A DNA stretch of 64,000 nt, from assembly GCA_029261405.1 (NCBI GenBank), contig JAJDBK010000046.1:1-64000 (forward strand). Direction: 5' to 3'. This stretch comes from Nitrospinaceae bacterium. GTDB taxonomy: Bacteria; Nitrospinota_A; UBA7883; JAJDBK01. The stretch's first letter is position 1. Each line of letters begins with the position of its first letter. Of this stretch, positions 13,805-58,308 are shown piece after piece. The notes under the pieces were generated by a model. It was not told the DNA's origin and searched no databases. It worked only from the letters and a program-made list of their open reading frames with translations. The translations under genes and the position numbers were made by a program.

Positions 13805-13948
13805 CACCAACTCCTGCCGAACGGCAGTTGCGGGTGCGGAGCGATAATCAAAACGATCCGATTCTCAGCGGTCACGATAATTGGTGTGCCCCAGCCACCG
13901 GAGCAAACGTAATCAAACCCACGAATACCAGCGCCAGCGAGATTCGCC

Positions 13949-13961
13949 GTGGCCGCGCCAC
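13949..13961 (+). repeat. Dispersed hairpin repeat, variant copy
   Basis: GTGGC-CGC-GCCAC, a perfect 5-bp inverted repeat preceded by ATTCGCC, the same flank seen in the copies at 14637-14670 (reverse orientation) and 43005-43133. Relative to those copies (GTGGT-CGC-ACCAC) the T-A pair is replaced by C-G, so both arms changed together. Confidence 0.6.
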
Positions 13962-13974
13962 TGGCCCAGCCACC

Positions 13975-14003
13975 TTGACAAGTTCCTGTCCTGATTTTAT
14001 CTT
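13975..14003 (+). promoter_or_regulatory. Sigma-70 promoter of hsp20
   Basis: Consensus -35 TTGACA (13975-13980), 17-base spacer, -10 TATCTT (13998-14003). It lies about 65 bases before the hsp20 start codon. No CIRCE element (TTAGCACTC-type) or obvious sigma-32 promoter is seen. Confidence 0.6.
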
Positions 14004-14069
14004 CTGAGCGAGAGAGTATGATTGTTGGCATTTATAACTTTAAACTATTTTTCATGGAGGTATGAAATC

Positions 14070-14498
14070 ATGTTGACACATTACAGGGAAAATTCGCTTG
14101 CTCCACTCGGCGGAATCGACCCGTTCAGGACGCTTTCTCTTTTTGACGAACTATGGCCTTCAACCCTTTCCGACCACTATTTTACTCCCGCTGTGGAGGT
14201 TACAGAGACCGATTTTGCATACAAGGTGACAGCCGAACTGCCCGGAATCGGGAAAGATGCGGTCAAGGTCGATTTTGAAGGATCGGTTCTTACCATCTCC
14301 GGCGAAAAAAGCGTGCGAAAAGAAGAGAAGGATGAGAAGGTATACCGCTCCGAAAGAGGGTACGGCTCCTTTTCTCGATCTTTCAGGTTCAGGAATATCG
14401 ACCCGGAGAAGATAAGCGCGTCCTGGGATAATGGTGTGCTTGAAGTATCAGTCCCGAAATCGGAGTCGGTTCAGCCGAGAAAGATAACCATTAAATAA
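14070..14498 (+). CDS. Small heat-shock protein, Hsp20/alpha-crystallin family
   Basis: 142 residues. ATP-independent holdase chaperone that forms oligomers and binds unfolding proteins. The alpha-crystallin domain runs from about residue 42 (FTPAVEVTETDFAYKVTAEL) through LPGIGKDAVKVDFEGSVLTI and ends with the DNGVLEVSVPK motif; the short C-terminal tail lacks a clear IxI/V motif (RKITIK is the nearest). The start at 14070 is chosen because a GGAGGT ribosome site lies 9 bases upstream; an open frame extends 16 codons further. It is a single-gene unit with its own promoter. Confidence 0.93.
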   Translation: MLTHYRENSLAPLGGIDPFRTLSLFDELWPSTLSDHYFTPAVEVTETDFAYKVTAELPGIGKDAVKVDFEGSVLTISGEKSVRKEEKDEKVYRSERGYGSFSRSFRFRNIDPEKISASWDNGVLEVSVPKSESVQPRKITIK

Positions 14499-14636
14499 TA
14501 GCTCCCACTCCACCATAACCTGGAGGCGGGTGGCAAGTATGGCAATGGCCCGGTCACCCGCCACACGGCGCGAACGTAAACAACCTTTTGCAACGGCACA
14601 CCTATCCCGCATTATTCATGAAGATTTGTGATGAAA

Positions 14637-14670
14637 GTGGTGCGACCACGGCGAATAGTGGTGCGACCAC
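14637..14670 (-). repeat. Two copies of dispersed hairpin repeat
   Basis: GTGGTGCGACCAC occurs twice (14637-14649 and 14658-14670), 21 bases apart, separated by GGCGAATA. Read on the minus strand this is ATTCGCC-GTGGTCGCACCAC, the same unit that is tandemly repeated six times with a 22-base period at 43005-43133. Confidence 0.75.
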
Positions 14671-14959
14671 TCGAGAACCAAAATGGCCGAAAGTGACGCA
14701 GTGGCAGGTGGATACGAAGATGTAACAGAAGCCTCATGAATTATCGGGGTTAGGGGTCGGTATTCTCTTTGTCGCCTTGTCGATCCACATTACCCATAAA
14801 GGTGACTCCAAAAAGCGCTAATACCACTTCGCTCCCTTCTCTCCACAGGCATTAACTCATAAACAATGATGACTAAACAGATCTGCCGCTAAAGTCTTGA
14901 ATTCAATTACCATTTTCGACAGAGACAGATTTTCAAAGCTGAAATAAGCCGCGAGGGCC

Positions 14960-42850: not shown

Positions 42851-42945
42851 TGGCGGAAGATGAAGGGAGTCGAACCCTCCGGAGACTATTACAATCTCCA
42901 CCTGGATTTGAAGTCCAGCCGCGCCACCGGACACGTTCATCTTCC
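42851..42945 (-). tRNA. selC: tRNA-Sec (anticodon UCA)
   Basis: Minus-strand 95-nt selenocysteine tRNA. Acceptor stem of 8 bp GGAAGATG/CATCTTCC, D-arm region GTCCGGTGGCGCGGC, anticodon loop CTTCAAA within CTGGACTTCAAATCCAG (UCA at 42911-42909), long variable arm GGAGATTGTAATAGTCTCC, T-arm GGGTTCGACTCCC, discriminator G and an encoded CCA (42853-42851). The long acceptor-T stack and UCA anticodon are diagnostic. It decodes UGA with SelB. selA, selB and selD are not in the window. Its 5' end is duplicated 210 bases upstream. Confidence 0.96.
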
Positions 42946-43004
42946 GTAAGTCGGTGTGGAATATTATATAGGTTTTGGCCGTAATACGCTTGGTGGCGCG
43001 GATT

Positions 43005-43133
43005 ATCGCCGTGGTCGCACCACCATATCGCCGTGGTCGCACCACCATATCGCCGTGGTCGCACCACCATATCGCCGTGGTCGCACCACCATATCGCTGT
43101 GGTCGCACCACCATATCGCTGTGGTCGCACCAC
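43005..43133 (+). repeat. Six tandem 22-bp hairpin repeats
   Basis: The unit ATCGCCGTGGTCGCACCACC plus AT repeats with exact 22-base period at 43005, 43027, 43049, 43071, 43093 and 43115. Units 5 and 6 have ATCGCT instead of ATCGCC and the sixth is cut off after GTGGTCGCACCAC by the duplicated tRNA end. Each unit contains the perfect inverted repeat GTGGT-CGC-ACCAC. There are no spacers, so it is not a CRISPR array. The same unit occurs near 13949 and 14637. Confidence 0.9.
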
Positions 43134-43159
43134 CCACCGGACACGTTCACCTTCCGTAA
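43134..43159 (-). repeat. Duplicated 5' end of tRNA-Sec
   Basis: 26 bases (CCACCGGACACGTTCACCTT then CCGTAA) match 42924-42949 with one mismatch (C43150 versus T42940), exactly 210 bases away in direct orientation. The matched segment is the first 22 bases of tRNA-Sec plus 4 bases of 5' flank. The rest of the tRNA is not present here, so this copy is a fragment. It directly abuts the last tandem repeat. Confidence 0.85.
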
Positions 43160-43171
43160 TATTATCGCGGT

Positions 43172-45736
43172 TTAAAGACCCAGGAGTTGGTATATCATCT
43201 TCATGTCTACTGACGCACGGAAAGTATCTGCCAGTCTGTCGAGAGCGCCATCCATATCGTAACGAGTAACGATAACGCCTTTTGGCGCCAATCCTTTTCG
43301 CTCACGTAGCTTATCGATAAACCACCGGCGAAACTCGTCCTGATCGAACAGGCCGTGCGGGTACGCGCCCCATGTAGAACCATCGGGCGAGCTTACGCCA
43401 ACTGTCATACCGTCATCCCGGACAACAGCCGGAACGCAGTTACCGATAGTGGTTTCGCCGTGATGGATTTCGTATCCGCCGATAGTCATACCCGATTCAA
43501 GATGTTTTCCTTGCATGCGGACCAGAGCTTTTTCCGGCATGAGAGTTGTCTCGGTATCGAGCAGACCAAGGCCCGGCGTCGATCTATCCTCCGACTCAAT
43601 CCCGTGTGGATCGTTTATACGTTTACCAAGCATCTGGAACCCACCACACAGCCCGATTATCATCGCCGACTTTGAACCCGCAAGCTCAGTGATCTTTTTC
43701 GCCATACCTGTTCGTTCGAGTTCCATAAGGTCGCCGATAACGTTTTTTGATCCGGGTAAAACTACCGCATCGGCATGGTTCAGATCATCCGCCGTTTCTG
43801 CCGAAACCAATTTTACCTCCGGCTCGAAAGAGAGCGAATCAAAATCGGTAAAATTCGATGTGCGTGCCAGGCGGACTACGGCGATAGTCACCGAATCGTT
43901 TTCAGTCGCAGTGGTAAAACCGTGTCTAAGGGATGTGCGATCCTCCTCCGGCATGTTGATCTGTTTCATATAAGGTACAACACCGAGAGTCGGGATACCG
44001 CAATGCCGTCCTGTGTATTCGATGGCGCTATCGAGAAGGCTTTGATCGCCCCTGAACTTGTTTATCAGAAACCCCGACAGAATCGACCTCTCCCATTCCG
44101 CCATTGTCTCTACGCACCCGATAAACGATGCGAAGACTCCACCCCGATCAATATCACCTACAAGGATAGCCCTGGCTCCCGCGTGACGCGCCATCCGCAT
44201 ATTAACGATATCGCTCGCCTTGAGATTGACCTCCGCCGGGGAGCCTGCGCCCTCCATCACGATTATTTCGTGTTTATCGGCCAGCGTGTCGAATGCGGTT
44301 TTTACGATTGCAAAGCCTTTTTCTTTTTTGAATGCGAAGTATTCGGCAACGTTCATGGAGCCTGCGGTTTTACCGAGGATGACAACCTGGGCGCCGGTAT
44401 CGTTTGTCGGTTTCAGCAGGATCGGATTCATCAGCGCAGACGGCTCCAGACGGCACGCCTGCGCCTGAGTTGCCTGCGCCCGTCCGATCTCGTTTCCGTC
44501 GAGGGTGACGTAAGAGTTGAGCGCCATGTTCTGGGACTTAAACGGAGCCACATCGTAACCGTCCTGATACAAAACCCTGCACAAAGCGGCGGTCATGACG
44601 CTTTTACCGGAATCAGAACTTACCCCCTGAAACATTATCGCCGGGGTTTTAGTTCGGCTCTTTTTTATAATCTTTCCATGCATCGCTTCTATCAGGGCCG
44701 CTACCAGCAGTTTATTCTCCGCAGGGGTGCGCACAGCCACACGGAAATATTTTTCGTCGAGACCGGCGAAGTTACCACAGGTGCGGATGGCGATTCTCTT
44801 TTCAAGCAGAGCCGTGGCGAGATGGTTTGCGTCAATGCCAGAACGTTCGATCCGCAATAAAAGGTAGTTCACCTGGCTGTCGAAAATGCGCAGACCGCTT
44901 ATCCGGTCGATATCCTCAACCAGACTATTACGCCACACAGTAACTTTCGCGGTGGTCTCCTGAACATATGTATAATCTTTGATGGCCCTCGTTCCAAAAA
45001 CCTGCGCCAGTGAGTTTACCGACCAGGGTGGCAGGTGGCCCCTGAATTTTTCGATGAGGGATTTTTCCGCTACAGCAAGTCCCAGCCGCAGTCCGGGTGT
45101 GGCGAAAAGTTTTGTAAGGGATATGATGACGATGACGTTCGGTGGGCGTTTATCCGTTATCGAATCGAAATCCTTTATAAAACCTGCAAACGATTCGTCA
45201 ACCACAAATGTAGTATCGATGTTCCGCTCCGCCATCTCCCGTATGACCGTACTCTCCACAGTTTTGCCGGTGGGGTTGTTCGGGTTCCCGATATATACAA
45301 GCTCGCCACCCTTGATCCGTTCCTCAAGTCTATTAACATCAAGGTTGAACCCTGTATCGGCGAGGAGCGGAAAAGATTCCACCACCAGTCCCGCCCTCTC
45401 CGCAGATTGGCGGTAATCGATGTAGGAGGGTTCCGGGATGAGAGCCTTTGCGCAACCGGTAACCGCTGGCGCAAGGAACAGCAATTCCGTCGATCCGTTT
45501 CCGGCTATCACCTGTGCTGGGGGTATGCCTCTCGATTCGGCGAAAGCCTCCACCAATTCCACGCAGAACGGATCGGGGTAGTTTGCCAATGAAGAGACGG
45601 ATGCGCTTATGGTCTGACGAAGCCAGTCCGGGAATCCGAGAGGATTCAGGCTGGCCGAAAAATCGAGGATCTCTCCAACCCGCAATCCTGACGATTTGGT
45701 CAATGAGCGAATGTCACCGCCATGATTAAAACTCAT
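43172..45736 (-). CDS. Fused threonine-phosphate decarboxylase and cobyric acid synthase (CobC-CbiP)
   Basis: 854 residues. Residues 1-350 are a PLP aminotransferase-fold enzyme of the CobD/CobC group (LDFSASLNPLGFPDW, AGNGSTELLFL, GNPNNPTGKTV, PLP lysine in SLTKLFATPGLRLG) that makes aminopropanol phosphate. Residues about 362-854 are cobyric acid synthase: P-loop-like GVSSDSGKSVMTAAL, PFKSQNMALNSY, GDIDRGGVFAS, and a glutamine amidotransferase domain with Cys in GLCGGFQML and the His of YEIHHGE. The two are normally separate proteins at neighbouring pathway steps. Last gene of the B12 operon, overlapping cobT by 4 bases. Confidence 0.93.
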   Translation of the reverse strand: MSFNHGGDIRSLTKSSGLRVGEILDFSASLNPLGFPDWLRQTISASVSSLANYPDPFCVELVEAFAESRGIPPAQVIAGNGSTELLFLAPAVTGCAKALIPEPSYIDYRQSAERAGLVVESFPLLADTGFNLDVNRLEERIKGGELVYIGNPNNPTGKTVESTVIREMAERNIDTTFVVDESFAGFIKDFDSITDKRPPNVIVIISLTKLFATPGLRLGLAVAEKSLIEKFRGHLPPWSVNSLAQVFGTRAIKDYTYVQETTAKVTVWRNSLVEDIDRISGLRIFDSQVNYLLLRIERSGIDANHLATALLEKRIAIRTCGNFAGLDEKYFRVAVRTPAENKLLVAALIEAMHGKIIKKSRTKTPAIMFQGVSSDSGKSVMTAALCRVLYQDGYDVAPFKSQNMALNSYVTLDGNEIGRAQATQAQACRLEPSALMNPILLKPTNDTGAQVVILGKTAGSMNVAEYFAFKKEKGFAIVKTAFDTLADKHEIIVMEGAGSPAEVNLKASDIVNMRMARHAGARAILVGDIDRGGVFASFIGCVETMAEWERSILSGFLINKFRGDQSLLDSAIEYTGRHCGIPTLGVVPYMKQINMPEEDRTSLRHGFTTATENDSVTIAVVRLARTSNFTDFDSLSFEPEVKLVSAETADDLNHADAVVLPGSKNVIGDLMELERTGMAKKITELAGSKSAMIIGLCGGFQMLGKRINDPHGIESEDRSTPGLGLLDTETTLMPEKALVRMQGKHLESGMTIGGYEIHHGETTIGNCVPAVVRDDGMTVGVSSPDGSTWGAYPHGLFDQDEFRRWFIDKLRERKGLAPKGVIVTRYDMDGALDRLADTFRASVDMKMIYQLLGL

Positions 45737-57999: not shown

Positions 58000-58111
58000 T
58001 GTAACAAACGTCTCCCGACAAAACCGTATTCAGTGTCAACACCGGGACGCCGTTTTCCACCCGCGCAACGAAGATTCGCCATGTCTACCGAGGCGGTATC
58101 TCCAATCTTCT

Positions 58112-58272
58112 CTCTGGGCAAGTCTTCTGACTTCCGGATCGTCCTACTGACCGCGTCTTCCCCTTAATAGAAAGAGTGACATTTGCGGTGTTCGTTCCCG
58201 GTTACAGCGGCGGTCCCGCGACGGAATCTCACCGTCTTCCTTTTTAAGCCAATAATGGCGCCCAGAGACCAG
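58112..58272 (-). ncRNA. Cobalamin riboswitch
   Basis: Read on the minus strand: P1 arm TCTCTGGGC (58271-58263) pairs with GCCCAGAGA (58121-58113). Between them are GGTGAGATTCC, the GCGGGACCGCCGCTGTAACC core (58217-58200 region) and the B12 box AGTCAGAAGACTTGCC just before the 3' P1 strand. These are the conserved elements of AdoCbl-type riboswitches in correct order. It sits upstream of cbiA and should switch off the operon when cobalamin is high. Confidence 0.95.
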
Positions 58273-58277
58273 TGTGC

Positions 58278-58308
58278 ATTATATCAGTAATTAAACGGGC
58301 GAAAGCAA
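58278..58308 (-). promoter_or_regulatory. Promoter of the B12 operon
   Basis: Minus-strand -10 TATAAT (58283-58278), 6 bases before the riboswitch, with a possible -35 TTGCTT (58308-58303) at a long 19-base spacing. The perfect -10 and its position directly before the riboswitch P1 make this the likely transcription start region. Confidence 0.6.

Follow-up and report, generated by a model that had tools for sequence, protein, structure and literature searches.

The hairpin repeat described here occurs at three places in the window, by which is meant the whole 64-kb stretch of DNA that was analysed, contig C46 of a genome of 3.27 Mb (81 contigs, 99.5% complete). The first place is an intergenic composite repeat upstream of an HSP20 gene, the second is a palindromic repeat with terminal inverted repeats (TIRs), and the third is a tandem array between a tRNA-Sec gene and a gene (43172-45736, - strand) with aminotransferase and CbiA/GATase_3 (CobQ/CobB-type) domains. 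The features, given with their window coordinates, are:

13883..13974, + strand: copy of an intergenic composite repeat (context B) of about 90 bp with approximate outer ends; the same arrangement is found at many places in the genome
13944..13961, + strand: TCGCC tag and hairpin GTGGC-CGC-GCCAC with a C-G closing pair (motif match)
14603..14752, no strand assigned: IS1380-type palindromic MITE (context C) of 150 bp, holding both hairpins of this place (TIR matches at both ends)
14603..14621, + strand: left TIR, TATCCCGCATTATTCATGA (TIR match)
14637..14654, - strand: TCGCC tag and hairpin GTGGT-CGC-ACCAC (motif match)
14658..14670, - strand: second hairpin GTGGT-CGC-ACCAC, 21 bp off and without a TCGC tag (motif match)
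14734..14752, - strand: right TIR, TAACCCCGATAATTCATGA (TIR match)
42851..42945, - strand: tRNA-Sec gene adjoining the array (Rfam match)
43004..43133, + strand: tandem array of six 22-bp units (CA)TATCGC(C/T)-GTGGTCGCACCAC, matching the unit at site 3 of the IS1182-type MITE described below
43134..43159, + strand: copy of the tRNA-Sec 5' end (25 of 26 bases; source 42924-42949) directly after the array

All nine hairpin copies that an earlier note on this DNA had listed are present where it placed them, namely GTGGCCGCGCCAC at 13949-13961 (+), GTGGTCGCACCAC at 14637-14649 and 14658-14670 (both -), and six further copies of GTGGTCGCACCAC within 43011-43133 (+). Their claimed exact periodicity of 21-22 bases is seen as a spacing of 21 bp in the pair and of exactly 22 bp in the array, to which TRF assigned a period of 22 with 6.0 copies and 99% matches (43004-43133). 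In dinucleotide shuffles of the window the motif was matched 0.26 +/- 0.52 times, and none of 100 shuffles reached nine matches. The flank ATTCGCC had been described too broadly: it is found at one copy of the pair at 14637-14670, but the copy at 14658 has TCTCGA instead, and in the array at 43005-43133 the actual flank is ATATCGC(C/T). On the other side of the array, near 42991, GGTGGCGCGG is an inverted match to the D-arm region of tRNA-Sec, and the tRNA-Sec-derived pieces beside the array may mark an old recombination event.

The observation that the hairpin is a dispersed repeat is right but larger in scale than first noted, with well over 100 places in the genome. The exact form GTGGTCGCACCAC has 31 genome copies and one in the control, and GTGGYCGCRCCAC, i.e. 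GTGG(Y)-CGC-(R)CCAC, has 77 as compared with one; the tagged form TCGCYGTGGYCGCRCCAC, with at most one mismatch, has 117 copies as compared with none, and a looser form of the motif has 152 as compared with 12. The unit consists of the tag TCGC(C/T), a stem of 5 bp and a loop of 3 bases (CGC or CGA), and it forms modules of 18 or 22 bp that are nested within other repeats, a nesting that had escaped the earlier note. A comparison of the tagged and the exact copies shows that 59 of the 77 exact copies carry the exact TCGCY tag. Only 11 of 107 tagged hairpins lie inside genes as called by a simple predictor trained on the window, nine of them within MITE copies, whereas about 80% of the sequence examined is coding. 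The frequency of the motif is thus not that of chance, nor is its placement in genes random, which are the two outcomes that the earlier note had named as speaking against its proposal, and the intergenic bias that it had suggested looking for is clearly there. The unit is short and palindromic, repetitive and extragenic, as are REPs of the RAYT/GTAG class, and it is a real, lineage-restricted, REP-like dispersed repeat with a new tag. There are also longer tandem or mosaic repeats in which the hairpin alternates with segments of the CCGAAGCCCGGGCCACAGGCCCCGGCGAACGAACGTAAA type (C73:26297-26421 and C33:5166-6426), a further layer of nesting.

Among the genomes that were compared from other families of the same order, G008 and G010 contain tandem arrays of the hairpin with spacings of about 18-22 bp. 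A wide taxonomic spread was considered and rejected: nine single matches to a 19-base pattern in unrelated taxa of the genome_contigs set and three in viral contigs are about as many as chance would produce, with roughly four matches expected in genome_contigs by our own estimate.

The compensatory base change in the stem, which had been noted from the copies in the window, is real and recurs throughout the genome. In the 77 exact copies the closing pair is T-A 31 times, C-G 30 times, T·G 16 times and C·A not once, while independent variation of the two sides would predict about 12 C·A; a closing-pair count listed as "CA 1" was a background match (CTGGCCGGAACAC) and no member of the family. 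In the variant 18-mer GTAGTGCGACTACCCCGG a different pair of the stem has undergone a compensatory change. Of 62 separate clusters, 21 contain the T·G pair, which is combined with five different loops and recurs in all contexts, and none contains C·A. As the hairpin copies share descent, such pairing counts are not independent and formal probabilities overstate the case, and the spread of T·G over the contexts is the better argument for a fold of one strand. On the strand that reads TCGC, T·G still pairs as a wobble, whereas the opposite strand has the mismatch A·C at this position, and it thus seems that the structure is maintained on only one strand. Such a one-sided wobble, with T·G present and C·A absent, is a simple indicator of the working strand of a dispersed palindrome.

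The earlier note had left the choice between a folded element and a binding site, and of these the fold agrees with a stem that is kept paired, whereas a double-stranded site is a poor fit with one-strand wobble. An operator or a site for a nucleoid protein with dyad symmetry would keep its dyad in the symmetrical change from T-A to C-G, and the many intergenic copies would suit it as well, but a symmetric operator predicts that T..G and C..A are equally frequent, and the observed numbers are 16 and 0. The copies are also found mainly in mobile repeats and near unrelated genes, and such a binding site is very improbable; wobble that is tolerated on one strand only favours a single-strand fold over a double-stranded operator. 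The folded strand might also be RNA, with transcribed hairpins that affect the stability, processing or termination of mRNAs, and both the pairing on one strand with G.U tolerated and the intergenic position are in line with this. The flanking genes, however, show no preference for the TCGC strand (in the gaps with context B, both genes run that way in 0 of 14 cases and the opposite way in 5), and the 5-bp stem is weak, folding as DNA at -3 to -4 kcal/mol. The sequence after the stem has no T-run, and terminator calling gave none at the hairpin sites, for which reason terminators were discarded as an identity of the element, and the hairpin matches no Rfam family at the gathering threshold, the Rfam scan of the window having returned only tRNA-Sec and a cobalamin riboswitch. 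An RNA element is thus improbable, although somewhat less so than a binding site. The cobalamin riboswitch (RF00174, 112 bits) is located at 58100-58280 of the window on the - strand. A bias of the hairpin towards the leading or lagging strand was also considered and dropped, as the GC skew of the window flips its sign together with gene direction.

The hairpin is often found inside larger palindromic repeats, whose contexts were read from the sequence stretches around the matches. The first of these host repeats, host repeat A, has the terminal inverted repeats AGGAGYCTGTCGGACTTRGG, of which there are 84 ends in the genome and none in the control. Ten copies are exactly 164 bp long and have no hairpin unit, and these fold from end to end into one long hairpin. 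The copies with the unit are 140-243 bp long, and the unit occupies three fixed sites: two at matching positions in the two arms and a central one, in which it stands in place of AATAGTGGACCTA. Inserts are 18-mers (GTGGCTCGGCCACAGCGA) or 22-mers (GTGGTGCGACCACAGCGATATG), one to three in tandem; at site 3 the tandem number varies from 1 to 3, so tandem growth at one site is evident, and an element on contig C48 has four 18-mers in tandem. Each site has its own typical hairpin sub-type, and when both arms are filled, their hairpins are complementary and lengthen the stem of the host. Whichever two sites are compared, each of the four combinations of filled and empty occurs, which cannot result from one nested descent and means that insertion, loss or exchange took place more than once. 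At C33:8003 a TIR of this repeat adjoins a fragment of an IS1182 transposase (NF033551, E 6.6e-21), and another precedes a DDE fragment at C17:19096 that is better matched by IS5 (NF033581, E 7.4e-17) than by IS1182 (4.8e-11). Several fragments lie at contig ends, and among the copies of this repeat no intact transposase was seen. By the TIRs that it has in common with a transposase-bearing copy, host repeat A can be assigned as a MITE of an IS1182-type element.

The repeat that holds the two hairpins at 14637-14670 is another palindrome, with 52 ends near TAACCCGGATAATTCATGA in the genome and none in the control. An unfilled copy of 182 bp (C31:88558-88739) is palindromic over its full length, and in the copy of the window the hairpin units occupy the place of part of one arm. 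At C50:4412 such a TIR is followed by an IS1380 transposase fragment (NF033539, E 1.6e-23) that is cut by the contig end, and it is again from TIRs in common with a transposase-bearing copy that this repeat is regarded as a MITE, in this case of an IS1380-type element. As the unit at site 2 of the IS1182-type MITE substitutes for 13 host bases and part of an arm is replaced in the MITE of the window, the junctions are not those of clean insertions.

In G010, the hairpin is found inside a different dispersed palindromic repeat, GAGATTGC...TCGCAATGAC, of which eight copies of 51-54 bp have the hairpin (some of them degenerate), eight copies of 30-37 bp do not have it, and one more copy is of another type. 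The filled copies carry (TATCG)GC-GTGGCCGCGCCAC, and in the relative G009 none of ten copies of the same repeat has the hairpin. Palindromic repeats of at least three unrelated kinds thus harbour the hairpin, each of them in filled and empty versions. That one hairpin is found in three unrelated palindromic hosts, two in its own genome and one in a relative, with empty and filled copies within the same genome, makes the insertion step testable, since junctions, preferred target and strand can be read directly.

The composite repeat that contains the hairpin at 13949 has the layout ...CCGGAGCRAACGTAAxC...AGCG..AGCG-[A/T]TTCGCY-hairpin-TGGCCCAGCCACC. Its copies often start right at a TAG (TAG-TGGCAGGGCCA-GTGGCGCGGCCAC), as at C31:109957, C33:5166, C5:79706 and C27:23221; this TAG is possibly the stop of the gene that lies upstream, and the arrangement suggests an insertion at gene ends.

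The reading that we prefer, with moderate confidence, is that of a REP-like small dispersed repeat, an 18-22-bp hairpin module that functions as a single strand and spreads by insertion or copying, by tandem duplication and by carriage in MITEs. Its mobility is what we infer from the filled and empty hosts, and three routes may contribute to it. The module would be inserted or copied into palindromic DNA, chiefly into the arms and the centre of palindromic MITEs; after arrival, the unit of 18 or 22 bp would be duplicated in tandem; and it would be carried passively when transposases of the IS1182 or IS1380 type move the MITEs that contain it. The working form is in this case likely single-stranded DNA, and a dedicated or borrowed activity with a preference for palindromes would copy the unit. 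A REP-type transposase encoded elsewhere, as had been considered in the earlier note, is not supported, as a search of the genome for Y1_Tnp (RAYT) gave no match, and in six relatives of the order no locus with a Y1_Tnp gene holds the TCGC-tagged hairpin. The copying activity would hence be no Y1/RAYT enzyme of the present genome, and the lineage may since have lost it.

The best-scoring Y1_Tnp gene of a relative (L220, G010:C477) lies between two direct repeats of a different small hairpin, TATCGCCCCTATGGGGC, at 640-656 and 1332-1348, which are probably a separate REP-like pair. This other hairpin has TATCGCC in common with the hairpin described here, yet was rejected as its kin; since there are only two exact copies of it in G010 and none in the genome of the window, the resemblance was treated as chance.

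The main rival to mobility is template switching or gene conversion at stalled palindromes. The hairpin would then be an inert palindrome that travels as a passenger of MITEs and grows in tandem by slippage, with no mobility of its own. Much of what has been described could be explained in this way: at each site of the IS1182-type MITE one sub-type is typical, as if each had arisen once and had then been spread by MITE movement or exchange, host bases are replaced at the imperfect junctions, complementary hairpins in doubly filled arms are what conversion from arm to arm would produce, tandem growth is evident, and the search for Y1_Tnp in the own genome was negative. However, at least three host repeats that are unrelated to one another contain the same module, as do several sites where no host was recognised, and the TCGC tag and the strand-polar pairing persist from context to context, neither of which is needed for passive copying. 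An inert passenger is thus possible but rather unlikely, and the single-strand module that spreads by insertion or copying is the explanation that we retain.

The TCGC(C/T) tag is new, as it is neither GTAG nor CGTC, although tagged REP-like hairpins as such are already known. The REP/RAYT elements with a GTAG tag (PMC3733652, PMC3116915) are likewise short intergenic stem-loops with a tag at one end and short loops that occur in clusters, they have compensatory and G-T changes in the stem, some of their families lie in longer palindromes, and 5-bp stems are found in Thauera. Unlike these, the hairpin here has a TCGC(C/T) tag (TCGCY in 59 of the 77 exact copies) in place of GTAG, GYAG or GTRG, and a RAYT gene flanked by the repeat is absent from its genome as searched with Y1_Tnp. 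It is also arranged head-to-tail at 18 or 22 bp, which is rare for REP units (PMC3733652). Inverted pairs like those of REPINs exist inside the arms of MITEs, where they extend the stem of the host, but are few elsewhere, the other copies being mostly single or head-to-tail. CGTC-tagged REPs share the tagged hairpin, the compensatory and G-T stem changes that are described for both classes, and the lack of a dedicated transposase (PMC3733652), and REPs of both kinds can sit inside longer palindromes, as do GTAG-15 of A. variabilis and CGTC-1 of H. neapolitanus (PMC3733652). Their tag, however, is CGTC, TGTC or CCTC and not TCGCY, and their stems of 8-9 bp and loops of 4-5 bases (PMC3733652) differ from the 5-bp stem and 3-base loop found here, a stem shorter than in nearly all GTAG and CGTC REPs (PMC3733652).

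A functional parallel is found in mitochondria, where repetitive hairpin elements (sponge RHE, fungal double hairpins and yeast GC clusters) are intergenic and have complementary substitutions and tandem double hairpins, and where the mechanism of mobilisation is likewise unresolved (PMC2800124). They share with our repeat the small intergenic hairpins with complementary substitutions and the tandems, but they are organellar, unrelated in sequence and have no MITE hosts. How tiny hairpin repeats can multiply without a recognisable transposase is a question common to CGTC REPs, small repeats of cyanobacteria and mitochondrial hairpins. The cyanobacterial small dispersed repeats are the nearest precedent for the nesting: Elhai et al. 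in 2008 reportedly described repeats of about 20 bp that are nested in other repeats and whose mobility is said to have been concluded from filled and empty sites, and no enzyme is known for them. The very small size, the nesting and the filled and empty sites are all found here as well, but sequence and lineage are different and the hosts are palindromic MITEs of the IS1182 and IS1380 types. It may tentatively be proposed, doubtful as this still is, that the TCGC-tagged hairpins represent a third REP-like class next to those with GTAG and CGTC tags, which would enter palindromes, and especially palindromic MITEs, as single-stranded DNA by a non-RAYT activity in two or more families of the order.
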